From Corallococcus macrosporus (lineage in GTDB: Bacteria; Myxococcota; Myxococcia; Myxococcales; Myxococcaceae), in assembly GCF_017302985.1 (NCBI RefSeq), contig NZ_JAFIMU010000007.1, forward strand, positions 806,001 through 870,000: a DNA stretch of 64,000 nt, in the 5' to 3' direction. The position numbers were made by a program, and so were the translations under genes. Shown here piece by piece: positions 42,967-47,325 of this stretch (position 1 is the stretch's first letter; every line of letters starts with the position of its first letter). The notes beneath the pieces were generated by a model. The model was not told the DNA's origin. It searched no databases and saw nothing but the letters and a program-made list of their open reading frames with translations.

Positions 42967-43151
42967 GAGGGAAGAAGACAGGCAGCCTAGCCCACGCTCT
43001 GGCACTGAACGAGGCCGGCCTGCCCGGCCACCCTCCCGCCATCCGGCCGCGTCCGGAAAGCGGCAGCCTGGCCACAATGCTGATGACGGGGGCCGGGCCC
43101 GGTCTACCATCCGCGCCCGCGCGAATGGCGTCGGTGAGGAGAGCCAACGGG

Positions 43152-43943
43152 ATGAGGGTCGGACGGGGTGCATTGCTGATGGCGCTCGCCCTGGGCGCGT
43201 GCAGCAAACCCGGTGCGGGCACGGACACGGCGTCGGATGCGGGAACGCTCCTCCTCGGGTTGCCGGGACGGCCGTCCACGCTGACCGTGCCCTCGTGCGA
43301 GGAATTGCTGCCCGCGGACCTGCGCGACCTCACGCTGAACGGCTTCACGATGAAGGAGGACCGCGCGTGTCCCTCGTGCGGGCCGCTGTGCACGCTGCGT
43401 TCGGCGGCGTTGCCGGACGTGGCCGTGTCGGTGGCGTATGACTGCCAGCCGCACTACGCGAACGCGGATGTGCGCGCGCTGCTCGCGCCCACGTTGAACG
43501 CGGGCGGCGAGGAGATTCCGGCGCTGGGCAAGGCCGCCGCGCGCCGCAATCCCGTGCAGGGCATGACGCAGGTGGTGACGTGGGATGACGACACGCCGTG
43601 CGTCGTCGTCGTGACCTGGCTGGGGGATGACCCCGACCGCGCGCTGGACGTGGCCCGCCTCGCGGTGACGTCGCACCACGGCGTGGTGGATCCAACGGCG
43701 GACGCGGGCACGGAGCTTCCGGCGGACGCGGGGGACAGCCTCCTCCTGGATGCGCCGCTGGAGCCGCTGGACAGCCTCACCACGCCGCGCGCCGGGACGA
43801 CGGATCTGCTCTCCGCGCCGCCGGGCTCGGGCTCCCGCTCAAGCCCGGTGACATCGCCGCCCGTCCCTGCCCCGCGTCCCGCGGTGAAGGCGCCGGTGGT
43901 TCCGAAGCCGGCCACGCCCGGTGTCCCTGACGCGGGCCCGTAG
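43152..43943 (+). CDS. Lipoprotein of unknown function
   Basis: The 263-residue precursor begins MRVGRGALLMALALGAC with the lipidated Cys at 17; a GAGGAG lies ten bases upstream of the ATG at 43152, though an earlier ATG at 43125 is possible. A Cys-rich segment (EDRACPSCGPLCTLRSA) and AYDCQPHYA suggest disulphides. The last third is Pro/Ser/Asp-rich (DAGTELPADAGDS), typical of surface lipoproteins here. No family is recognised. It converges with the broken mannosyltransferase gene. Confidence 0.75.
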   Translation: MRVGRGALLMALALGACSKPGAGTDTASDAGTLLLGLPGRPSTLTVPSCEELLPADLRDLTLNGFTMKEDRACPSCGPLCTLRSAALPDVAVSVAYDCQPHYANADVRALLAPTLNAGGEEIPALGKAAARRNPVQGMTQVVTWDDDTPCVVVVTWLGDDPDRALDVARLAVTSHHGVVDPTADAGTELPADAGDSLLLDAPLEPLDSLTTPRAGTTDLLSAPPGSGSRSSPVTSPPVPAPRPAVKAPVVPKPATPGVPDAGP

Positions 43944-43967: not shown

Positions 43968-45070
43968 TCAGTAAGGCCACTTCGCGATGGCATCGGCGTG
44001 AGTGACCTTGTGATTGAGCCAGACAAGCACCAGCGCCACGCTCCAGCGCAACGCTCCAGGGCGCGTGGCCAGCCAGTCACCCGCGACGAACCTCACCGGA
44101 AAGAGGACCGCGCCGAAGCGGAAGGCATTTCCCAGGTCGCCTTGCGGCAGCATCACCAGCAGCGACAGCAGGGCATAGAGGCCCAGGGCCCGGTCGCGGC
44201 GCCATGACACCCCCGCGAACACCAGCCACACCGCGCCAAAGACATTCCGCAGCACCAGCCAGCCATTGAAGCCCCGGTGCCAGGGATTGCCAAACCACAG
44301 TCCCCGGATGGCGCCCCAAAGCGAGTCCACGTGGTTCCACTCCCGCTGCGCCTTCAGGAACATGAAGGGGTCACCGGAACGGCTCCACTCGAAGACAAGC
44401 AGCCCGGCGAATGCCAGCAGCGCGAAGCCCCCCATGAAGATGAACCGCACGAAGCGCTCGCGCCACGACGGCTCGCGCATGGCCGCCAGGAGCGCGGCGG
44501 CAATCGCCACGAAGCAGCCCTGATTGCGCGTGAAGATGCAGAGCGAGACCAGCACGGCGGAAGGCAGCAGTTGCCCACGCGAGGCACACGCCAGCGCCCC
44601 GAACGACAGGAGCAGGAAGAGCCCCTCCGTGTGGTGCGAGTGCAGCGCGAAGCTGGCGGGACCGTAGAGGAAGACGAACCATCCCCAAGGTGTCCGGGCC
44701 ATCAGTCCTTCGCGCCACGGCCCCCGCCTCGCCTGGTGGGCGTTCCACGCGACGAAGCCCAGCAGGCATAACGTGGACAGGACCGCGCCGACGACCTGGG
44801 AGGCAGGGTGCCCCCCAGTGCCAGCCGCGCCAGCCAGACCAGGCCCGGGTACAGCGGCAGGAAGGCCCAGAGCGGCCACGTGTACCCCTCCAGAACGAGC
44901 GTGCTGTAGTAGTGGGAGTCCCAGCGCTCCAACACCAGGAGCGGAGGGATGCCCCGGTGCCAGGACGTCCAGGCCCAGAGCCCGAAATGGTGGACCAGCA
45001 CCACGAGCCCCCAGGGCGCATACCCGCCCCTGGGAGGTGATTCATCCGCGGCGTGTGAGGCGAGCCCCAT
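43968..45070 (-). pseudogene. PIG-V-like mannosyltransferase, broken by a frameshift
   Basis: Two adjacent minus-strand frames together encode a GT-C-type multi-membrane protein of about 367 residues. The N-terminal part (45070 to about 44815) has LERWDSHYYSTLVLEGYTWP and FLPLYPGLVWLA, close to the WD...Y...GY and F.PLYP motifs of PIG-V mannosyltransferases. The C-terminal part (about 44815 to 43968), in the -1 frame, continues with VVGAVLSTLCLLGFVAWNA, FTRNQGCF and further helices. The frames join at a run of six Gs (44811-44816 on the plus strand as Cs); one more G restores a single gene. No other stop or shift is seen, so the break is recent, a sequencing error or a phase-variable site. 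The donor is presumably a polyprenyl-phosphate sugar. Confidence 0.8.
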
Positions 45071-45112: not shown

Positions 45113-47155
45113 CTACAGCGTCTCCAGGTACGCCACCAGGTCGTCCACGTCCGCGTCGGACAGCCCCGCGGTCATGCCGTGCTGGTTCGTCTCGCGGCCG
45201 TTCAGCAGACGCGCCTTGAGCGAAGGCGCGCTGCCGTCGTGCAGGTACGGCGCGGTGCGGCCCACGCCCAGCAGCGACGGCGTGTTGAGCCCCGCCTTGA
45301 TGACCGCCGCCGCGTCCTGCAGCACGCCGGAGCGCACGAACGTGCCCACGTCCGCGTTGGTGTTGTTTGTGAGCGCAGCGCCCGTGTGGCAGGTGTCGCA
45401 CTTCGCCTGCTTGAAGAGGACAGCACCGCGCGCCTGCGGTGCCGTCAGCGGCTCGCCCTGGAACGCGTTGTCCGGCGTGGGGATGGCGTCGATGAACGCG
45501 CCCAGCTTCGCGACCGTGTCCGCGTCCAGGTCCTGGCCGCCCATGCGGTCCTTCACCGTGGCGCTCATGAAGTCCCCCAGCGCGGAGAACTCGCCGCTCC
45601 AGTGGAAGGGCGCCGTGGCCGTCGTCATGCGGCCCGCGAGGCTGGGCGTCTGGCGCGGCCCGTCCGGGAAGCCCCACACGTGGCCGTCCTCGCGGCCCTC
45701 CAGGTGGCACGACGCGCAGGACACCGCCACGGACGGGCTGGTCATCCGCCGGTCCACCGCGCTGAAGAACAGCCGACGGCCCTCCGCCGCCAGCGGCGAC
45801 AGCGTGTCGCCCGCGATGACCAGGCGCGAGCCCTCCTCGCGGATGTCATTCGCCCCGCCCACCAGCGTGCTGACCGTGTGGTCGAACGCGTTGTAGACGT
45901 ACGCCCTGCGCCCGTCCCGCGTGAGCGCGATGCCGTTGGGCCCCGCGCCCACGTCCACCAACTGCCGCACCGGGCTCGACTCGTTCGGCAGGTCGGAGCC
46001 GGTCCGCCGGAACGAAGGCAGGATGGCCACGTTGTTCGAGTCCTGGTTCACCAGGAACAGCCACGCGCCCGTCGGATCCACCACCGCCGCCGAGGGCCCC
46101 TGCAGGGGCGTCGTGAACGATGGGCTCGCGATGAGCGACGTGGGGTAGTCCGGCTTCTCCTCCGGCGGCGGCTTGCACTCGTCCAGGTCGTCCACCACCG
46201 GCCGGGGCGCCTCGTCCTCCGTGTCGAAGGTGATGACGCCCGCCGCCACCACGCCGCCGCCACTGGAGGCACCGCACGGCGTCCCGCCGCCGTACATGGA
46301 ATCGCCCAGGTCCGGGTCGCGGCCGTCCACGGGGCCGCCCAGCGGATCCTCGCGCGACCACAGCACCGGCGCGAAGAGGCGCCGCCCATCCGGCGCGCCC
46401 AGCAGGTCCACCATGCCGCGCGCCCGGAAGGCGCGCGGGAGCTGCTGGACGCCGGGGGGCAGCGGGGTATCGAAGACGTCGTCCGCCGCGGAGCCCCCGT
46501 TGGACACGGAGGCCGAAGGGCGGTTGGCCTTCGCGTTCAGGTCCGTGCCGTCGCGCATCACGCGGGGGTTGTTCGCGTCCGACAGGTCCACCGTCACCAC
46601 GTCGCCCTGCCGGAAGAGCGACACCGCCGCCTTGCGGCCCTCCTCCAGGAGCGCGATGCCGCGCGGCTCCTCGCCCAGCGGCAGCTCCCAGCGCACCGTG
46701 AGCGTGGCCGTGTCGATGGCGGTGAGGCTGCCCCGCGCGGCGGACTTCCGCGTGGCGCTGTTCACCACGTACAGCGTGCTGCCTTCCGGAGACACCGCGA
46801 GCCCCGTGGGCTCCACGCCGACCTGGATGCGCGCGGCCTCCACCGCGTCGCCCTTGCGGATGACGGACACGCTCCGGTCGCCCCGGTTCGTCACGTACAC
46901 GGTGTCGTCCACGCCCACCGTCACGCGCTCCGGGCGCGAGCCCACGCGCACCTCGGAGACCTTCTCCCGGCGGGCGGTGTCCACCACGGCGAGGATGCCG
47001 TTGTCCGCGTCCACCACGTAGAGCAGCGAGTCATCCCGGCTGAGCGCCAGGGACCCGGAGGCGTTGCTCCAGGTGCCCGCGACCTCGCGCTCCTTGCAGC
47101 CCGAAAGCACCAGCGTCGTCACCGCGCACAGCGCGGCCCATCCCTGCCGTCGCAT
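45113..47155 (-). CDS. Beta-propeller di-haem cytochrome c lipoprotein
   Basis: The 680-residue precursor has a lipoprotein signal ending LVLSGC (Cys20). An N-terminal YVTN-type beta-propeller follows, with LLYVVDADNGILAVVDTARR, VYVTNRGDRSVSVIRKGD and TLYVVNSATRKS. The C-terminal part is of the cytochrome c peroxidase type with two haem sites: SCASCH (near 478) and KCDTCH (near 585), and APYLHDGSAPSLK between haem ligand loops. It would carry electrons on the cell surface or in the periplasm. The ATG at 47155 is chosen for its signal peptide; an ATG at 47167 is possible. It is divergent from the two-component genes. Confidence 0.88.
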   Translation of the reverse strand: MRRQGWAALCAVTTLVLSGCKEREVAGTWSNASGSLALSRDDSLLYVVDADNGILAVVDTARREKVSEVRVGSRPERVTVGVDDTVYVTNRGDRSVSVIRKGDAVEAARIQVGVEPTGLAVSPEGSTLYVVNSATRKSAARGSLTAIDTATLTVRWELPLGEEPRGIALLEEGRKAAVSLFRQGDVVTVDLSDANNPRVMRDGTDLNAKANRPSASVSNGGSAADDVFDTPLPPGVQQLPRAFRARGMVDLLGAPDGRRLFAPVLWSREDPLGGPVDGRDPDLGDSMYGGGTPCGASSGGGVVAAGVITFDTEDEAPRPVVDDLDECKPPPEEKPDYPTSLIASPSFTTPLQGPSAAVVDPTGAWLFLVNQDSNNVAILPSFRRTGSDLPNESSPVRQLVDVGAGPNGIALTRDGRRAYVYNAFDHTVSTLVGGANDIREEGSRLVIAGDTLSPLAAEGRRLFFSAVDRRMTSPSVAVSCASCHLEGREDGHVWGFPDGPRQTPSLAGRMTTATAPFHWSGEFSALGDFMSATVKDRMGGQDLDADTVAKLGAFIDAIPTPDNAFQGEPLTAPQARGAVLFKQAKCDTCHTGAALTNNTNADVGTFVRSGVLQDAAAVIKAGLNTPSLLGVGRTAPYLHDGSAPSLKARLLNGRETNQHGMTAGLSDADVDDLVAYLETL

Positions 47156-47325
47156 CGGAAATGCCATCCCCTCCCGCGAAGGCCCGCGCGTGCCTCCAGC
47201 CCCAGCCTCGCGCGGCCTCACGGCCTGTCGGGAGCGTGCCGGCCCAGCTCACACGCCTTCCCGAGGGCCGCATGCTCGCCCAGCCGCCCACCTGAAGTCG
47301 ATGCCCTCCGCACCCGCCGTATGCC

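Follow-up and report, generated by a model that had tools for sequence, protein, structure and literature searches.

A single-base break in a PIG-V-like GT-C glycosyltransferase gene of Corallococcus macrosporus: very probably a young pseudogene or a consensus error rather than a phase-variable switch

Two kinds of described systems are closest to the locus considered here, namely the homopolymer contingency genes, in which the change of one base in a repeat tract breaks the reading frame, and the membrane glycosyltransferases of the GT-C fold. Phase-variable genes in host-associated bacteria are often cell-surface glycosyltransferases, and the accessory genes of bacteria commonly show single-base breaks, which are due either to mutation or to errors in sequencing. 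The lengths of tract that have been regarded as noteworthy are illustrated by a screen of Bordetella, in which C/G tracts longer than 8 were counted as unusual, with a phase-variable C6 in bvgS also cited in the same paper (PMC1891110).

The window analysed here is a stretch of 64,000 nucleotides (G000:C7:806001-870000) from a genome of 9.8 Mb in 17 contigs. Positions 43968-45070 of its minus strand hold a broken gene for a GT-C glycosyltransferase of the PIG-V/Mannosyl_trans2-like type, as indicated by 15 intact orthologs, a weak PF04188 match and the GT-C fold of an ortholog, and the closest named relatives of this gene are from Corallococcus. A minus-strand frame of 122 aa (45070-44702) is accompanied, in an adjacent frame, by the remainder of the same protein, which ends at 43968. 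Each of the 15 collected orthologs has one uninterrupted frame from end to end, open across the break site, and the split is thus real in this assembly, as the original prediction had it. The C-terminal piece is ~87% identical to the ortholog from the congener G009 and has no stops, and inspection of both frames revealed no further stop or shift in either half, consistent with the lone, clean break that had been proposed. Extra inactivating changes in relatives, for which a check had also been suggested, were not found, as the relatives either have an intact gene or lack it altogether. The upstream neighbour (45113-47221, minus strand) codes for an intact beta-propeller/c-type cytochrome protein and is syntenic in congeners, while the convergent gene downstream (43077-43943, plus strand) codes for a putative lipoprotein whose tail is variable and rich in Pro/Ala. 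Comparison of window positions 43700-43943 with the corresponding loci L096-L100 suggests that the length of this C-terminal tail differs greatly among congeners, unlike the N-terminal part of the lipoprotein, which is conserved.

The two halves had been predicted to meet at a six-base C6/G6 run at 44811-44816. The run is indeed present, but alignment with the 15 orthologs shows that this is not where the frame is lost. Read on the minus strand, the run lies in frame within Leu-Gly-Gly codons, its six Gs forming two glycine codons that several orthologs spell otherwise and without a run. Three orthologs (L013, L014 and L016) have the identical six Gs, and all three genes are intact. Past the run the N-terminal frame still matches (LALGGTLP... 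in the window, LGGTLPPQVV in relatives), and it is lost about 10 bases further on, where CTGCCTCCCCAGG or an equivalent in the relatives corresponds to CTGCCTCCCAGG, with one C fewer, in the window. The lesion thus consists of three Cs on the minus strand at 44798-44800 (GGG on the plus strand) in place of the four seen in intact relatives. Given that the frame of the window stays correct through the G run and that three intact relatives have the same six Gs, the lesion must lie outside this run. An independent pairwise alignment of the window's genome with G009 puts the missing base at the same place, and a change of frame at the G run would instead turn the GGTLPP of close relatives into GGHPAS, in which the HPAS residues match no relative. 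The piece in the ancestral frame accordingly comprises ~90 N-terminal codons with the RWDS motif (44801-45070, minus strand), beyond which the open frame continues out of frame to the stop at 44702, and the C-terminal piece of ~275 codons (43968-44797, minus strand) can be read in the shifted frame without interruption as far as the normal stop.

Pfam searches with the two broken halves returned nothing useful, and the nature of the encoded enzyme was therefore assessed through its orthologs. Thirteen of the 15 match PF04188 weakly at E-values up to 1 (best 3.5e-6), and L016, L013 and L010, scanned singly, score 14.6-17.8 bits (E 0.002-0.02; cut-off 22.4). No solved structure was matched by sequence search. 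With the alignment of 15 orthologs as input, AlphaFold modelled the G009 ortholog (L016) at a pLDDT of 82 and a pTM of 0.81; folding of the single sequence was poor (pLDDT 51). Foldseek alone found no match to this model at E < 0.001 (best 0.008). In VIA-align against solved structures the top matches were ALG12, OST/STT3, Pmt4, ArnT and GPI mannosyltransferase I, with Z-scores of ~15-18 over ~300 residues, and the matches listed were GT-C enzymes or GPI-transamidase subunits. The model has a transmembrane fold over the whole protein, and the first extramembrane loop carries a conserved acidic residue, D52 of the RWDS motif, which is invariant in all 15 orthologs and is likely to be catalytic. 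On the strength of this model the product is classed by fold as a GT-C membrane glycosyltransferase. The PIG-V-like part of the original assignment thus stands, resting on the weak PF04188 match and the GT-C fold, while the name "mannosyltransferase" is a guess; to our knowledge, bacteria do not make GPI anchors. The RWDS motif sits in the N-terminal piece, and the break parts it from the bulk of the enzyme. A distant, intact paralog with ~31% identity, scoring above the PF04188 cut-off, was also observed in the same genome (L187; G000:C8:36720-37697), and matches of this type occur in most congeners.

The gene is present in 10 of 15 congeners and absent from the other five. In the latter, the cytochrome and lipoprotein genes on either side are next to each other, their aligned parts being only 124-768 bases apart, and no trace of the glycosyltransferase gene was detected between them. 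Because a third of the congeners thus cleanly lack it at the same syntenic site, the gene is, on the evidence of this distribution, dispensable. The gene-less species do not form a single group but are scattered on the tree of a flanking gene, tentatively suggesting, to the extent that a single-gene tree allows, that more than one event of loss, or of gain, has affected the gene. The pan-genome of Corallococcus has been described as very open (PMC6306037). Two further congeners show other arrangements. In G010 (L102, 3242-5467) an extra open frame of ~740 aa lies between the cytochrome and glycosyltransferase genes, which implies that the intergenic site varies by insertion in addition to gene absence. 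In G014 (L105, 1780-6463) the glycosyltransferase gene adjoins acyltransferase/PfaD-like genes of a polyketide-type cluster and not the cytochrome gene, implying that the gene has moved.

Selection on the C-terminal part was examined relative to the sister ortholog L013. The branch leading to the window carries 22 synonymous and 13 non-synonymous changes (dN/dS ~0.20), and the same half gives values of 0.11-0.28 in five relatives. Among 166 residues otherwise invariant in 11 Corallococcus orthologs, three are changed in the window, as against 0-6 in the others. Three non-conservative changes in the last 75 residues (L355S, M393R and Y426D, numbered by alignment columns) offer a faint hint of relaxed constraint, and relatives show changes that are equally severe. 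Hence, neither relaxed selection nor a second lesion after the break was detected by dN/dS or by the count of invariant residues. The contention that the break does not reflect old decay is upheld by these values, and an old pseudogene was rejected because decay and a second lesion are absent. As there has been no long neutral period, the break should be either very young or an error.

Taken together, these observations are best explained by an ordinary account in which no switching is involved, and on the whole we hold this account with high confidence. A dispensable accessory gene, encoding a GT-C-type, PIG-V-like membrane glycosyltransferase that probably uses a polyprenyl-phosphate sugar donor, would lack one base in a short run of Cs, which has three in place of four, ~10 bases downstream of the six Gs. 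Should the cell really be without this base, the gene would be a very young pseudogene, with an inactivating change in a gene that is intact in relatives. The N-terminal piece would then keep the RWDS loop with its likely catalytic aspartate and end after 122 aa, and the rest would be made without this loop, so that neither piece is expected to be active. If the base is not missing in the cell, the deletion would be a single error of the consensus.

These two possibilities, a very recent loss-of-function mutation in the strain or species and one base dropped from the consensus at the short C run within CCCAGG with the gene intact in the cell, appear about equally likely, each having close to an even chance of being correct. 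To gauge the quality of the assembly, 1.2 Mb of this genome was screened for shifts of coding frames against 1.2 Mb of the complete congener G009, covering 495 genes and 594 kb of aligned coding sequence (195 genes in the surrounding 400 kb). Gene starts were trimmed, since the untrimmed version was dominated by indels upstream of the true starts. The screen listed five shifts without compensation in the window's genome, one of them in the glycosyltransferase gene. The other four, dismissed on a reading of their context, are two single-base shifts just upstream of likely starts, one 52-base gap and one complex gap. Within the 594 kb, the glycosyltransferase break thus stands alone as a clear single-base shift in the middle of a gene, indicating that the assembly is not generally noisy, though among millions of bases one position of the consensus may still be wrong. 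This cleanness favours a true mutation, as does the absence of the gene at the same place from five congeners that fall in different lineages of the flank tree, and the repeated absence makes true loss plausible; a random error would strike such a gene only by chance. Against a true mutation, decay has not accumulated, and the lack of relaxed selection after the break, the intactness of all orthologs and the loss of a single base in a homopolymer equally suit an error. Of the two origins originally put forward, sequencing or assembly error therefore retains its place, while the switch does not, the site being other than the six-G run.

A phase-variable switch by homopolymer slippage would accord with the frequency of such switching among surface glycosyltransferases of host-associated bacteria and with the otherwise intact state of the gene. 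However, we consider it very improbable, given that the true site is a run of four or three, shorter than contingency tracts usually are and lying outside the six Gs. The window has a GC content of 70.4%, and G/C runs of six are about as numerous in it as chance predicts (29 seen, 28.4 +/- 6.0 expected under a second-order Markov model); those of at least seven are fewer than the same model predicts. The six Gs are not conserved across the orthologs, none of which shows a frame-breaking length difference at this run, the relatives being intact or without the gene, and the Bordetella screen dealt with longer tracts, its mention of the C6 in bvgS notwithstanding. The frame break does not lie inside an over-long tract and, judged by sequence, both the G6 and the C3/C4 run lack the hallmark of a contingency tract. 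That cells of the population truly differ at the C4/C3 site, so that this soil predator could switch a surface-glycan enzyme on and off, is more improbable still; if true, the tract would be far shorter than known contingency tracts. Programmed ribosomal frameshifting, yielding one protein from two frames, would suit the openness of both frames and the conserved sequence but is similarly remote, since one frame suffices for the protein in each of the 15 orthologs and there is thus no maintained frameshift signal. As an ordinary single-base break of an accessory gene the case matters little in itself; its lesson is that aligning relatives shifted the break off an eye-catching homopolymer and thereby removed the case for a phase switch.

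In comparison with known systems, the locus resembles homopolymer contingency genes, such as the surface genes of Bordetella and Neisseria, in that a homopolymer altered in length by one base disrupts a gene of the surface-glycan type, but it differs from them in that the tract is of four or three bases only and is known here from one genome sequence. With NF046093 (AZOBR_p60025 family cell surface glycopolymer formation protein), on which no paper was found in the literature, the orthologs share a partial match over ~140 residues (E 1.7e-7); at 30.7 bits against a cut-off of 150 they fall far short, and membership was rejected. With Mannosyl_trans2/PIG-V (PF04188; CAZy GT76) they share an RWDS-type motif in the first extramembrane loop and a weak profile match over residues 48-183, although the singly scanned orthologs are below the curated cut-off and the match takes in only about a third of the profile. 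With the GT-C glycosyltransferases (ALG12, STT3/PglB, Pmt4, ArnT, GPI-MT-I and PimE) the ortholog, a putative enzyme known here from sequence and model and 7-14% identical to them, shares a fold match over its whole length at Z-scores of ~10-18.
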